Positions 35,579-40,385 of a DNA stretch of 64,000 nt are shown piece after piece. How positions within the stretch are numbered: the first letter of the stretch is position 1; every line of letters begins with the position of its first letter. The notes beneath the pieces were generated by a model. That model did no database searches, was not told the origin of the DNA, and worked only from the letters and a program-made list of their open reading frames with translations. Made by a program: the position numbers and the translations under genes. Source of the DNA: Streptomyces sp. Tu6071 (GTDB taxonomy: Bacteria; Actinomycetota; Actinomycetes; Streptomycetales; Streptomycetaceae); contig NZ_CM001165.1 in the NCBI RefSeq assembly GCF_000213055.1, positions 992,001 through 1,056,000 of the forward strand, in the 5' to 3' direction.

Positions 35579-36415
35579 ATGTCCCAGTCGGCCACGCCTC
35601 CGTCGTCCCCCTCCGCGTCCCGTACCGCCCCGCCCCCGGCCCCGGCGGGTACCGAGAACGGCTCCGGCGGCCGGGCCGCGGCCCAGCGCCTCAAGATGCG
35701 CCGCGAGCTGGCGTCCGCCGCGATGGAACTCTTCGCGACGAAGGGGTACGAGGCGACGACCGTCGACGAGATCGCCGCCGCCGCCGGGGTCGCCCGGCGG
35801 ACCTTCTTCCGCCACTTCCGGTCCAAGGAGGAGGCGATCTTCCCCGACCACGACGACACCCTCGTCCGCGTGGAGGACGTCCTGAAGGCGGCGCCCGCGC
35901 ACGAGCACCCGCTCGACACGGTCTGCCGGGGCATCAAAGAGGTCATGAAGATGTACGCGGCGGCGCCTCAGGTCTCCGTCGAGCGCTACAAACTGACGCG
36001 CGAGGTGCCCACGCTGCGCGAGCGCGAGATCGCCTCGGTCTCGCGCTACGAGCGTCTCTTCACGCGCTACCTCCTCGGCCACTTCGACGAGCACGAGCAG
36101 AACGGCAACGACGAGCCGCTGCTCGCCGAGGTCGCCGCCTCGGCCGTCGTGACGGCGCACAACCACGTCCTGCGGCGCTGGCTGCGGGCCGGCGGCGAGG
36201 GCGACGTCATGTCGCAGCTCGACCGGGCGTTCGCGATCGTACGGGCCACGGTCGGCGCCAACTTCGCGGTCGGCGGCCTCACGCCGGGCCGGCCCGGACC
36301 CGCGGCGACGGCGAGCGCGCGCGGCGAGGTGCTCGTGACGGTGGCGCGCACGGACGCGCCGCTCGACGAGGTCATGCGCACCATCAAGGAAGCGCTGCGC
36401 CCGCAGGGCGACTGA
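35579..36415 (+). CDS. TetR-family regulator of CoA-pathway locus
   Basis: A 278-residue TetR-type repressor. A 35-residue Ser/Pro-rich leader precedes the DNA-binding domain: LKMRRELASAAMELFATKGY, TTVDEIAAAAGVARRTFFRH, FRSKEEAIFPDHDD. The effector region has MKMYAAAPQVSVERYKLTRE and helices ending FAIVRATVGANFAVGGL, then a tail of about 50 residues, longer than usual. It sits before the mutase relic and the CoA ester lyase, where streptomycetes carry the regulator of the crotonyl-CoA carboxylase operon. Two related palindromes downstream are its likely operators. The synteny statement is from memory. Confidence 0.88.
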   Translation: MSQSATPPSSPSASRTAPPPAPAGTENGSGGRAAAQRLKMRRELASAAMELFATKGYEATTVDEIAAAAGVARRTFFRHFRSKEEAIFPDHDDTLVRVEDVLKAAPAHEHPLDTVCRGIKEVMKMYAAAPQVSVERYKLTREVPTLREREIASVSRYERLFTRYLLGHFDEHEQNGNDEPLLAEVAASAVVTAHNHVLRRWLRAGGEGDVMSQLDRAFAIVRATVGANFAVGGLTPGRPGPAATASARGEVLVTVARTDAPLDEVMRTIKEALRPQGD

Positions 36416-36438
36416 GCGCCGCAGAACTGACACCGCGA

Positions 36439-36473
36439 GGGGTGGCGGGCCGCACGGTCCCGCCGCCCCTTTT
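36439..36473 (+). terminator. Hairpin with T-tract after TetR gene
   Basis: GGGGTGGCGGGCC pairs with GGTCCCGCCGCCCC (one mismatch/bulge) and is followed by TTTT. It lies 24 nt after the TetR stop. This separates the regulator from the downstream unit, which must therefore have its own promoter in 36474-36790. Confidence 0.7.
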
Positions 36474-36582
36474 CCGTGTCCCGCACCACCCGACAGGCGC
36501 GGCACGCAGTGCCAAGATCACGCCAGCGTACCCCTTACGTCAGGACCACGTCCGAACGGATGAGCCCGCAGCCTCGCCACCG

Positions 36583-36646
36583 TGATCGATCATCTTGGTT
36601 CACCAGTCGAGAAAATCCCTTGCCCCACTTGGGATGATCGATCATC
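36583..36646. promoter_or_regulatory. Paired GATCGATCATC operator sites
   Basis: TGATCGATCATC (36583-36594) and the perfect 14-bp palindrome GATGATCGATCATC (36633-36646) are 50 bp apart, with an AT-richer promoter-like stretch between (AGAAAATCCCTTGCC). They are the likely binding sites of the adjacent TetR protein and sit in the 375-nt gap 36416-36790. Otherwise that gap holds only the TetR terminator and a leader hairpin. Confidence 0.65.
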
Positions 36647-36740
36647 GCTCATCTGAGCGCTACCTTTGCCAGATCGATACCGGTGAGTAGCAGAACCTCC
36701 TTGCTGACTGACACCGCGTGCCATACGTTGAGGAAGTCCG

Positions 36741-36762
36741 GGCGGCCCTTCCACGGGCCGCC
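36741..36762 (+). other. Leader hairpin before mutase relic
   Basis: GGCGGCCC (36741-36748) and GGGCCGCC (36755-36762) form a perfect stem with a 6-nt loop in the untranslated leader, 28 nt before the GTG start and just upstream of its GGAGG site. It could attenuate translation or be a remnant of a longer leader. Confidence 0.4.
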
Positions 36763-36790
36763 ACGCCACAGCCCCCCGCCGGAGGCACCC

Positions 36791-37555
36791 GTGAAGGACA
36801 CCCTCGACCTCTTCAGGACCACTGGTACGGCCACCCTCGCCCTCGTGTGCGACGCGCCGACGCGCGCGGGCTTCGACCCGGGCGACCCGGCGGCAGCCGG
36901 CGCCTTCGGGCGCGAGGGCGTGGCGCTCGCTCACCTCGGCGACGTGCGGCGCCTGTTCGACGGGGTTCCGCTCGACCGGGTGCGCCTCGCGCTCCCCGGC
37001 GGCCTCACCGGGATATGGCTCCTCGCGCTCTGCCTCGTCACCGCCGAGGAACAGGGGCTCGCGCCGGACGGACTGGGCGGGACCACGTACGAGGAGCGGC
37101 CCGCCGCGACGGCGCTCGCGCTGCGGCTGCGCGGCGACCTCACCGCGTACGTCTCCGCCTCCCTGCCCCGCTGGGCCTTCCGCGCGGGCAGCCTGCCGGG
37201 GCGCGGCTCCCCCACCGCCGGGCCCGGTGACGAGGCGGCGGCCGTCGCGGCGCTCGCGCGCTGGCGGGAGACCCGTGAGGAGTCCACCGACCGGCAGGGC
37301 CTCGCCGACCCGTACCTGTGGCCGAGCGTGCGCCAGAGCCTCGACGGGCTCGCGGACGCGGCCATCGACGGGGACTCCCTCATGGACGCCACGCTCGACT
37401 GCGTGCGCGCCGGGGTCACGACGGGCGAGTGGGCGCACACGCTGCGCGCGGCGCTCGGCGCGTACGAGTCCCCGGCGGCGTACGCGCACGGGGTGCCCGC
37501 GTCCCCCGCCCCGTACCGCACCGGGCGCCACCGCGCCCCCGCCGGAGTGCGGTGA
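36791..37555 (+). CDS. Truncated ethylmalonyl/methylmalonyl-CoA mutase-like relic (MeaA-like)
   Basis: An intact 254-codon frame, GTG start with GGAGG upstream. Residues about 16-110 follow the N-terminus of MeaA-type B12 mutases: DAPTRAGFDPGDPAAAG (for D-x-P-T-Q-x-G-Y-D), VALAHLGDVRRLFDGVPLDR, LLALCLVTAEEQG, then LRLRGDLTAYVSASLPRW. Residues about 150-235 follow the linker near residue 500 of MeaA: VAALARWRETREE and DSLMDATLDCVRAGVTTGEW. The TIM-barrel core (about 330 residues) and the whole cobalamin domain are missing, and T-Q-N-D is replaced by T-Y-E-E. It cannot be a mutase. The first eight residues (VKDTLDLF) recall the start of crotonyl-CoA reductase. It lies 56 nt before the lyase gene. 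Confidence 0.75.
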   Translation: MKDTLDLFRTTGTATLALVCDAPTRAGFDPGDPAAAGAFGREGVALAHLGDVRRLFDGVPLDRVRLALPGGLTGIWLLALCLVTAEEQGLAPDGLGGTTYEERPAATALALRLRGDLTAYVSASLPRWAFRAGSLPGRGSPTAGPGDEAAAVAALARWRETREESTDRQGLADPYLWPSVRQSLDGLADAAIDGDSLMDATLDCVRAGVTTGEWAHTLRAALGAYESPAAYAHGVPASPAPYRTGRHRAPAGVR

Positions 37556-37611
37556 TCACCCCCGTAGGGTCGGGAGGAGCACGTACCCGCCGCTCCCCCG
37601 GAGGTCCCCGC

Positions 37612-38580
37612 ATGACCGGCACGCCCGGCCCGCGTCCCGTCCGCCCGCGCCGCTCCTGCCTCGCCGTGCCCGGCAGCAACCCGCGTTTCCTGGCCAAGGC
37701 GCGCTCGCTGCCCGCCGACGAGGTCTTCCTCGACCTGGAGGACGCCGTGGCACCGCTCGCGAAGGAGGAGGCCCGGGAGAACGTCGTGCGCTGCCTCAAC
37801 GAGGGCGGCTGGGGCGGGAGGACACGGGTCGTGCGCGTCAACGACTGGACGACGCAGTGGACGTACCGCGACGTCGTGACGGTCGTCGAGGGCGCCGGGC
37901 AGCACCTGGACTGCCTCCTGCTCCCGAAGGTGCGCGACGCGGGGCAGGTCGTCGCCCTCGACCTGCTGCTCACGCAGATCGAGAAGGCCATGGGCTTGGA
38001 GGTGGGCCGCATCGGCATCGAGGCGCAGATCGAGGACGCCCGGGGGCTCGTCGGCATCGACGCGATCGCCGCGGCCTCACCGCGACTGGAGGCCCTCGTC
38101 TTCGGCCCGGCCGACTTCATGGCCTCGATCGCCATGAAGACGCTCGTCGTCGGCGAGCAGCCGCCGGGGTACGGCGCGGACGCCTATCACTACATCCTCA
38201 TGAAGATTCTGATGGCCGCGCGCGCCCACGGCCTCCAGGCGATCGACGGCCCCTACCTCCGCATCCACGACGAGGACGGCTTCCGCGCCGTCGCGGGGCG
38301 CTCCGCCGCCCTCGGCTTCGACGGGAAGTGGGTCCTGCACCCGGCGCAGATCGCCGCGGCGAACGAGGTCTACGCGCCCGCGCAGGAGGACTACGACCAC
38401 GCCGAACTGATCCTCGACGCCTACGCCCACCACACCTCGGCGGCGGGCGGGGCCCGGGGCGCCGCGATGCTCGGCACGGAGATGATCGACGAGGCCAGCC
38501 GCAAGATGGCGCTCGTGATCGCGGGCAAGGGCCGCGCGGCCGGTCTCGCCCGCACGACCTCGTTCACGGCGCCGGAGTGA
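37612..38580 (+). CDS. HpcH/HpaI (CitE-like) CoA ester lyase, Mcl1-like
   Basis: A 322-residue CitE/Mcl1-family aldol lyase that splits or forms beta-methylmalyl-/malyl-type CoA thioesters using Mg. The ATG has GGAGG 8 nt upstream. RRSCLAVPGSNPRFLAKARS, DEVFLDLEDAVAPLAKEEAR (substrate/metal acid cluster), LLPKVRD, IGIEAQIEDARGL (Mg-ligand Glu), ALVFGPADFMAS (second metal Asp) and GKWVLHPAQIAAANEVYAP are all in family order. In the ethylmalonyl-CoA pathway this enzyme cleaves methylmalyl-CoA to glyoxylate and propionyl-CoA. Its usual partners ccr, meaA and the mesaconyl-CoA hydratase are absent here except for the relic upstream. Confidence 0.9.
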   Translation: MTGTPGPRPVRPRRSCLAVPGSNPRFLAKARSLPADEVFLDLEDAVAPLAKEEARENVVRCLNEGGWGGRTRVVRVNDWTTQWTYRDVVTVVEGAGQHLDCLLLPKVRDAGQVVALDLLLTQIEKAMGLEVGRIGIEAQIEDARGLVGIDAIAAASPRLEALVFGPADFMASIAMKTLVVGEQPPGYGADAYHYILMKILMAARAHGLQAIDGPYLRIHDEDGFRAVAGRSAALGFDGKWVLHPAQIAAANEVYAPAQEDYDHAELILDAYAHHTSAAGGARGAAMLGTEMIDEASRKMALVIAGKGRAAGLARTTSFTAPE

Positions 38581-38869: not shown

Positions 38870-39517
38870 ATGCCCGACAGCCACACCCCTGTAACTCGCG
38901 GCCGGGTCCGCCTGGCCCGCGGCGCCTCTCCCTGGCTGCTGCCCACCGTCGCCACGGCGGCCCTCTCCCTCGGCCGCGCCCGCCGCTCCGGGCGCGCGGC
39001 GGCGCTCGCGGTACCGGCCACGGCCCTCGCCGCGGGGATGCTGTGGTTCTTCCGCGACCCCGAGCGCGAGATCTCCGAGGGCAGGGTCATCTCGCCCGCC
39101 GACGGAGTGGTGCAGAGCGTCATGCCGTGGAAGGACGGCCGCACGCGCGTGGCGATCTTCATGAGCCCGCTCAACGTGCACGTCAACCGCGCTCCGCTGG
39201 CCGGCACCATCACCTCCATGGAACACGTTCCCGGTGGTTTCGTGCCCGCCTTCAACAAGGAGAGCGAGAACAACGAGCGTGTCGTGTGGCACTTCGACAC
39301 GGAGCTCGGCGACATCGAGATGATCCAGATCGCCGGGGCCGTGGCGCGCCGCATCGTCCCGTACGTGCCGAGCGGCACCAAGGTCGAGCAGGGCGAGCGG
39401 ATCGGGCTGATCCGTTTCGGCTCCCGCGTGGACCTCTATCTGCCGGAGGGGGTCGAGGTCGCCGTGGAGGTCGGGCAGCCGACGCTCGCGGGGGTGACTC
39501 GCATTGACCGTGACTGA
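38870..39517 (+). CDS. psd: Phosphatidylserine decarboxylase
   Basis: A 215-residue short-type Psd proenzyme making phosphatidylethanolamine. Two hydrophobic stretches near residues 18-60 anchor it. FFRDPEREISEG and VISPADGVVQSVMPW are family marks, and MSPLNVHVNRAPLAGTI carries the conserved His. The self-cleavage site is Gly-Ser in IRFGSRVDLYLP near residue 183, which creates the pyruvoyl group. The upstream frame is also open, but MPDSHTP is the conserved-looking start. A GATACCAT sequence at about 38798-38805 may be the -10. It overlaps pssA by 14 nt. Confidence 0.94.
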   Translation: MPDSHTPVTRGRVRLARGASPWLLPTVATAALSLGRARRSGRAAALAVPATALAAGMLWFFRDPEREISEGRVISPADGVVQSVMPWKDGRTRVAIFMSPLNVHVNRAPLAGTITSMEHVPGGFVPAFNKESENNERVVWHFDTELGDIEMIQIAGAVARRIVPYVPSGTKVEQGERIGLIRFGSRVDLYLPEGVEVAVEVGQPTLAGVTRIDRD

Positions 39518-40385
39518 CCGCGGTACCCACGACCGCGAAACACACGACCCGGAGACCGGGGACCCGTGGGGGCTCGACGCCGACGAGGCGGGCGAGCCCG
39601 AGATGCCTCTGTCGCTGCGCCTCTCGATCGCCGACGCCCTCACGCTCGGTAACGCGACGTGCGGGTTCATGGCGGTGTACTTCACCACCACCGGCATCCT
39701 CATCCCGCACCTCACCGGCAGCGACGAGTTCGGCATGGCGCGCCACTCGGCGGCGACCGCGGTGATCCTCATGCTGTGCGCGGCGGTCTTCGACCTCTTC
39801 GACGGCCTCGTGGCCCGCAAGCTGCGCAGCTCGCCGATGGGTGCCGAGCTGGACAACCTGTCGGACCTGATCAGCTTCGGTCTCGCTCCGGCCTACTTCG
39901 TGCTCGTGTACGGGCTGGTCGCGGACGACGCGCACCAGAGAGTCGCCGCGCTGGGGGCGATCGTCGTGCTCCTGGCGGTGGTGCTGCGGCTCGCCCGCTT
40001 CTCCTGCGTGACGCTGCGCGACGGCGTCTTCCAGGGGATGCCGAGCCCGTTCGGGGCGCTCACGGTCGTGTCCGTCGTGCTCCTGGAGCTGCCGTTCGTG
40101 GCGACGCTGCTCGCGATCATCGGGACGGCGTGGCTCATGGTGAGCCGCGTCGAGTACCCGAAGCCGCGCGGGCCACTCGCCGTCGCGATGCTGAGCTGGA
40201 TCGTCGCGGCGATGGGACTCCTCGCCGCCTGGGCCTTCGACGCCCCGGGCGGGCAGCTCCTGCTCCAGACGGGCTGCGCGCTCCAGCTCGTGCTCGCCGC
40301 CGTCATCCCGCTCTTCGCGACCGCGCGCCGGGTCAACAACTTCCGGGGCAACCGTCGCGAGGCACGGGCGGTACGACTGCCGTAG
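39504..40385 (+). CDS. pssA: CDP-diacylglycerol-serine O-phosphatidyltransferase
   Basis: A 293-residue membrane enzyme that makes phosphatidylserine, the substrate of Psd. The CDP-alcohol phosphatidyltransferase motif D-x2-D-G-x2-A-R-x8-G-x3-D-x3-D is intact: DLFDGLVARKL followed by GAELDNLSD (about residues 98-122). Six to eight hydrophobic helices follow, for example AIVVLLAVVLRLARFSCVTL and FVATLLAIIGTAWLMVSRVE. An acidic soluble N-terminus of about 35 residues precedes. The start is the TTG at 39504 or the GTG at 39510. Either overlaps psd, so the two steps of PE synthesis are coupled. Confidence 0.94.
   Translation: MTVTDRGTHDRETHDPETGDPWGLDADEAGEPEMPLSLRLSIADALTLGNATCGFMAVYFTTTGILIPHLTGSDEFGMARHSAATAVILMLCAAVFDLFDGLVARKLRSSPMGAELDNLSDLISFGLAPAYFVLVYGLVADDAHQRVAALGAIVVLLAVVLRLARFSCVTLRDGVFQGMPSPFGALTVVSVVLLELPFVATLLAIIGTAWLMVSRVEYPKPRGPLAVAMLSWIVAAMGLLAAWAFDAPGGQLLLQTGCALQLVLAAVIPLFATARRVNNFRGNRREARAVRLP

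Follow-up and report, generated by a model that had tools for sequence, protein, structure and literature searches.

The open reading frame that runs from a GTG at 36791 to a TGA at 37555 on the plus strand of the window (the whole 64-kb stretch of Streptomyces sp. Tu6071 DNA that was analyzed) is probably a pseudoenzyme that arose by deletion. What is left of meaA appears to have been joined to the ccr promoter, ribosome site, and first codons, yielding a protein of 254 residues (here called the relic) without an active site or a B12 domain; it would be transcribed with the neighboring lyase gene and would work by binding. Its origin, the fusion, the lost residues, and selection on its amino acids across strains are documented below at the level of sequence, and the selection suggests a new, non-enzymatic role. 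The features of the locus are collected in Table 1.

Table 1. Features of the relic locus, in window positions.
Feature	Positions	Strand	Basis
TetR-family regulator gene, upstream of the former ccr-meaA operon	35579..36415	+	PF00440 1.1e-17; start by eye from protein
Two near-identical palindromes, GTGATCGATCAT (36582-36593) and ATGATCGATCAT (36634-36645), probable operator	36582..36645	.	2 matches in 64 kb
Core promoter TTGCTG, 17 bases, TACGTT, probably inherited from ccr	36701..36729	+	Outgroup ccr leaders; promoter reading by eye
Ribosome site GGAGG	36781..36785	+	CCGGAGGCA common to relic and ccr in 5/5 outgroup loci
Codons 1-9 (VKDTLDLFR); about the first five from the ccr start (VKEILDAIQ)	36791..36817	+	DNA alignment of relic and ccr starts; junction approximate
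N-lobe, codons 10-128, barrel start of MeaA	36818..37174	+	Alignment to MeaA; omega (see text)
C-lobe, codons 145-230, linker before the B12 domain of MeaA	37223..37480	+	Identity to P0022; omega (see text)
Variable tail, codons 231-254, plus stop	37481..37555	+	Omega (see text)
Intact malyl-CoA/beta-methylmalyl-CoA lyase-type gene	37612..38580	+	PF03328 2.9e-39; PDB 5ugr 5e-70; omega (see text)
Phosphatidylserine decarboxylase (psd)	38870-39517	+	PF02666 2.9e-44; flank fixing synteny
CDP-alcohol phosphatidyltransferase (pss)	39504-40385	+	PF01066 2.7e-10; flank fixing synteny

An earlier note on this DNA had derived the frame from MeaA, the Streptomyces ethylmalonyl-CoA mutase, and this was borne out by profile, structure, and alignment comparisons. 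PF01642 matched the relic in two stretches (1.3e-16, 60.8 bits, cut-off 22.1), the best of which spans 71-159 of the 512 model positions; the relic is thus a homolog of the B12-dependent acyl-CoA mutases (MeaA/MCM). TIGR00641, a model of the mutase N-terminus, gave 2.2e-22 but 79 bits, far under its full-length cut-off of 303.8, and a search of the PDB returned methylmalonyl-CoA mutase at 6e-17. Full-length MeaA P0022 of Streptomyces sp. NPDC049954 served as the reference for the block alignment. Relic residues 10-105 correspond to MeaA 33-128 (42/96 identical), 106-128 to 139-161 (9/23), and 145-230 to 425-510 (55/86); the C-lobe is the best-conserved part. The N-terminal and linker ends of MeaA are therefore joined, with the B12 domain missing, as the note had described. 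Deleted from the relic are MeaA residues 14-32 (19 residues near the N-terminus), residues 129-138 (a separate 10-residue gap), and most of 162-424, and the substrate barrel is incomplete. The main barrel gap amounts to about 250 residues; the earlier figure of some 330 missing barrel residues was overstated.

The catalytic features of the family are also gone. The B12-domain motif DxHxxG (searched as D.H..G) was absent from the relics P0001, P0003, and P0005 and from P0008 and present in P0022, P0024, and P0067. The YAG.ST arm, present in MeaA, was absent from the relics checked, and the TQND segment was absent from the relic in the alignment to MeaA. At the positions matching S114, S164, Q197, and R207 of the P. 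shermanii enzyme, the relic has either another residue or a gap. The arm with Y89 and the segments with R207 and H244 are deleted and Q197 is replaced, such that none of these four residues is retained; we take all six positions to have active-site or catalytic roles in methylmalonyl-CoA mutase. Because these catalytic parts are lost, catalysis by the mutase route is excluded as judged from the alignment, and binding is left as an option. A small protein with no link to the lyase that still binds acyl-CoA as a sensor or carrier, or that catalyzes some other reaction, would fit an N-lobe derived from the first part of the mutase barrel (presumably the substrate barrel) in which many residues are almost invariant with respect to MeaA; however, the arm and methylmalonyl-CoA mutase positions 114, 164, 197, and 207 have been changed or deleted, and we consider this alternative unlikely.

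The deletion is best appreciated by comparison with five outgroup loci (G209, G002, G012, G021, and G005) in which TetR, meaA, lyase, and pss occur together. There, meaA lies between ccr and the lyase gene, the same locus as the relic; ccr precedes meaA in all five as judged by the ccr start, and by family score in the four that were searched (G209 was outside that search). In G002, the only locus with its genes scanned, a MaoC-type mesaconyl-CoA hydratase and an acyl-CoA dehydrogenase were located between lyase and psd; this hydratase had a match in 0 of the 4 relic genomes. The order TetR-relic-lyase-psd-pss was found in the window, NRRL F-5630 (L027), and SPB074 (L058), and in SID11385 (L028) the relic's end is followed by the same downstream genes as in the window. 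TetR is 97-98% identical in the two relic-bearing relatives whose loci reach it and 75-78% identical in the outgroup loci. Both ccr and the meaA core are missing from the relic locus. The search for Ccr covered the Tu6071, SPB074, and NRRL F-5630 genomes and four outgroups, with SID11385 outside it; the profile scored 632-637 bits in the outgroups, while the best score in the three relic genomes was 78-83 bits (cut-off 378.55). The earlier proposal that an ethylmalonyl-CoA operon had collapsed to a remnant plus the lyase gene agrees with these observations, as does the genome search that it called for: Ccr is absent, and PF01642 finds the relic alone in its own genome. A deletion would have joined the ccr start to the meaA remains. 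Isocitrate lyase was found in all four relic genomes, and growth on acetate may therefore survive without the ethylmalonyl-CoA pathway. The converse case is argued for S. lividans, which is without isocitrate lyase and presumably relies on the ethylmalonyl-CoA pathway (PMC3017869).

The leader identifies the source of the gene's start. GTG[CT]CATACGTTGA, CCGGAGGCA, and GTGAAGGA are common to the relic leader and the ccr leaders of all five outgroups, and GTGCCATACGTTGA or GTGTCATACGTTGA, matching the relic's core promoter, stands upstream of ccr in each. The leader at the meaA start in the outgroups differs from that of the relic. Since the relic agrees with ccr in its promoter region, ribosome site, and first codons, and the meaA leader differs, the relic is, on this comparison, a fusion by deletion of a ccr start and a meaA remnant; the alignment of DNA with the ccr starts also upheld, for about the first five residues, the suggestion that the beginning of the protein (VKDTLDLF) was possibly left from ccr. 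The two palindromes were the only matches (at most one mismatch) in 64 kb, against 0.02 expected, and GATCGATCATCGCTCA, which overlaps the second of them, occurs upstream of ccr in 4/5 outgroup loci (not G005). The TetR gene and the operator-like palindromes suggest that the former regulator continues to control the remnant; relic and lyase would then be transcribed together from the old ccr promoter under TetR control. In the leader stretch compared, one ATGATCGATCAT-like element precedes ccr in those four outgroups and two are present in the relic window; the relic clade may have doubled its operator. Palindromes resembling GGCACnnnGTGCC were also observed near the promoter (36501-36513 and 36710-36722), with similar elements, seen by eye, before outgroup ccr; they showed no clear enrichment over the window as a whole.

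Conservation of the palindromes, promoter, and ribosome site would likewise be found if only the DNA or RNA mattered, i.e., if the remnant served as a leader from which, with its promoter and operator, the lyase gene is transcribed. Such a leader would have no use for the amino-acid conservation reported below, however; moreover, 56 bases lie between the relic stop and the lyase ATG, the lyase has its own upstream GGAGG (37600-37604), and no RNA family exceeded its gathering score in 36300-37700. This explanation is very improbable.

Selection on the pseudoenzyme was assessed using codon models on a star tree with F3x4 frequencies, repeated with F1x4 and with equal codon frequencies. Under F3x4, omega was 0.110 for codons 1-111 and 0.133 for the middle (three strains each), 0.123 for the C part (four strains), 0.067 for a 71-codon C core starting at residue 157, and 0.37 for 20 shared codons of the tail; the p values for the N part, C part, and C core were 3e-15 to 5e-13. 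Neighboring genes had values of 0.019-0.052, with the lyase at 0.052. With F1x4 or equal frequencies, omega of the N part, middle, C part, and C core rose to 0.16-0.39, still below 1 (p <=0.0072); equal codon frequencies gave 0.22-0.37 for the N part, C part, and C core. Since GC-rich third positions are put down to base frequencies in the model, 0.1-0.4 is the range we consider honest for the relic. Same-strand shifted frames had omega of 1.35-6.4. One antisense frame was also low (0.13-0.20), as expected for a frame sharing third positions, and therefore the homology to MeaA decides the strand. By the Nei-Gojobori method, dN/dS was 0.24-0.51 for the relic (ten overlapping comparisons) versus 0.03-0.29 for TetR, lyase, psd, and pss, placing the relic above most neighbor values; its evolutionary rate exceeds that of the lyase roughly two- to threefold. 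The dN/dS comparison advocated earlier thus indicates a protein under selection (omega 0.07-0.13 in the main parts, below 1 under the other frequency models), and the omega near 1 of a dead pseudogene was not observed.

These data bear most directly on the idea of a slowly decaying pseudogene, which would have suffered successive in-frame deletions, would be open by chance in GC-rich DNA, and would have come under relaxed selection lately. The relic does evolve faster than its neighbors, and the stem between the relics and P0008/MeaA is very fast, at 2.8 changes per column (2.10 + 0.73) compared to relic tips of 0.02-0.10 on the shared columns; the lyase tree, whose outgroups were different, has 0.26 on the equivalent branch and 0.018-0.045 on its tips. 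The frame is indeed open, as first claimed, but openness by itself says little: when the GC-rich gene was simulated under neutrality, 14-66% of the runs stayed free of stops, the share varying with distance and composition. The SPB074 relic has a one-base frame change near codon 111, and the gene may be dispensable there unless the change is a sequencing error. The DNA-level sample comprised four strains, one partial (SID11385) and one frameshifted (SPB074), and further strains are known as proteins only; the relic is open in Tu6071 and NRRL F-5630 and, over the part covered, in SID11385. The earlier note would have taken random stop codons in close relatives as a sign of plain decay; the disruption observed in this sample was the SPB074 frameshift. 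A stop was also flagged in the NRRL F-5630 relic, but we read it as the normal terminator of the gene; the match extends two codons past that point. Against decay, omega is well below 1 among the relic-bearing strains, a comparison that postdates the loss of the core; p reaches 3e-15, the dependence on frame is the correct one, and the C core is constrained nearly as much as the lyase. Fast change on the stem and constraint afterward would be expected if the role had changed; a gene in plain decay would keep up its pace. Because omega is below 1 while that of same-strand shifted frames is above 1, the relic is, by the codon evidence, a conserved pseudoenzyme, and plain decay is quite unlikely.

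About 8,000 candidates were scored, and 20 proteins were found: five relic clusters, the SPB074 fragment, P0008, and 13 other mutase-related proteins, 10 of which carry a B12 domain. The clusters (254-271 residues, 75-97% identity) hold 20, 2, 2, 5, and 1 member sequences, 30 in total; the short form that the earlier note had sought in related strains therefore occurs in several Streptomyces. It was present in 2/392 whole genomes drawn from the genus and in 2/395 relatives, draws that overlap; a third match among the relatives, in G209, was a full-length meaA frame. A scan of genome contigs yielded 30 loci, 2 of the relic kind. The clade's lyase was found at E 1e-175 in the same 2/392 genus genomes as the relic, and this co-occurrence in two related genomes is a weak tie between the two.

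PF01642 finds the relic alone in the Tu6071, SPB074, and NRRL F-5630 genomes (G000, G010, and G549). SID11385 (L028/G550) has two near-complete, adjacent PF01642 matches with MeaB on the same contig, and the other 35 same-genus genomes in one search had 4 to 8 matches to P0001 each. True MeaB scored 317-387 bits in G002, G209, and the relic-bearing SID11385. Full-length MeaB is missing from the other three relic genomes: Tu6071 had one match of 22.0 bits (cut-off 23.1). SPB074 and NRRL F-5630 had two apiece, which scored 22.8-24.5 bits, near or slightly above that cut-off, and spanned no more than 32-60 of 273 positions. B12-binding domains gave four matches in Tu6071, four in SPB074, and two in NRRL F-5630, and other B12 proteins probably remain in these genomes; since PF01642 finds the relic alone there, none of these domains belongs to another protein of that family. 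A decoy or chaperone acting on a PF01642-family mutase was considered and is removed for these three genomes because they show neither another such mutase nor full-length MeaB; SID11385 has both. The new role envisaged earlier consequently stands insofar as the protein is kept and its amino acids are under selection, but not as a decoy or chaperone of a mutase in three of the four relic genomes.

Of the old pathway, the intact lyase gene is what has been kept next to the relic, and for this reason the adjacent malyl-CoA-type lyase is our best guess at a target, with the relic as a small partner or modulator; this assignment is tentative. More doubtful is its fullest form, in which the relic, a rest of a B12 mutase with two non-adjacent lobes placed on a lost neighbor's promoter, would serve beta-methylmalyl-CoA/malyl-CoA lyase exclusively, as a non-catalytic subunit or an allosteric modulator, in a Streptomyces clade where most examined members gave up all acyl-CoA mutases of this family. 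An acyl-CoA sensor is the next guess. AlphaFold performed poorly with relic-family rows alone (mean pLDDT 46.6), and the model with the better score (61.0) leans on MeaA rows.

Compared to MeaA (P0022, P0024, and P0067; 683-686 residues), to which its N-lobe and linker are homologous, the relic is without the arm, most of the barrel, and the B12 domain. P0008 (397 residues) likewise has neither the B12-domain motif nor the arm and shares the RT-x-G-x-A-x-LA junction, but it keeps more of the barrel; it is a single sequence on a long branch, known from protein alone, and looks like a second, less eroded mutase remnant. It fell on the relic side of a 98/96 branch (the bootstrap is unsettled and the branch long), with P0022 next, and is a possible intermediate. 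MutA, the beta chain of methylmalonyl-CoA mutase, is a catalytically silent mutase fold that pairs with a large subunit. Both it and the relic are silent and mutase-derived, but MutA keeps the whole fold, and the PF01642 search found no large-subunit partner for the relic in three of the four relic genomes. Pseudoenzymes are enzyme-derived proteins kept after catalysis is lost; this one differs from them in general by its large deletions, rather than active-site substitutions alone, and no B12-mutase example was found in the literature searched.

Public sources name the product "methylmalonyl-CoA mutase family protein", an annotation that could wrongly credit relic-bearing strains with a mutase. 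In this locus one can trace how a large metabolic enzyme lost its core by deletion while selection went on acting on the protein that remained; the full-length relative (P0022), a possible intermediate (P0008), and the inherited regulatory DNA can all be seen.
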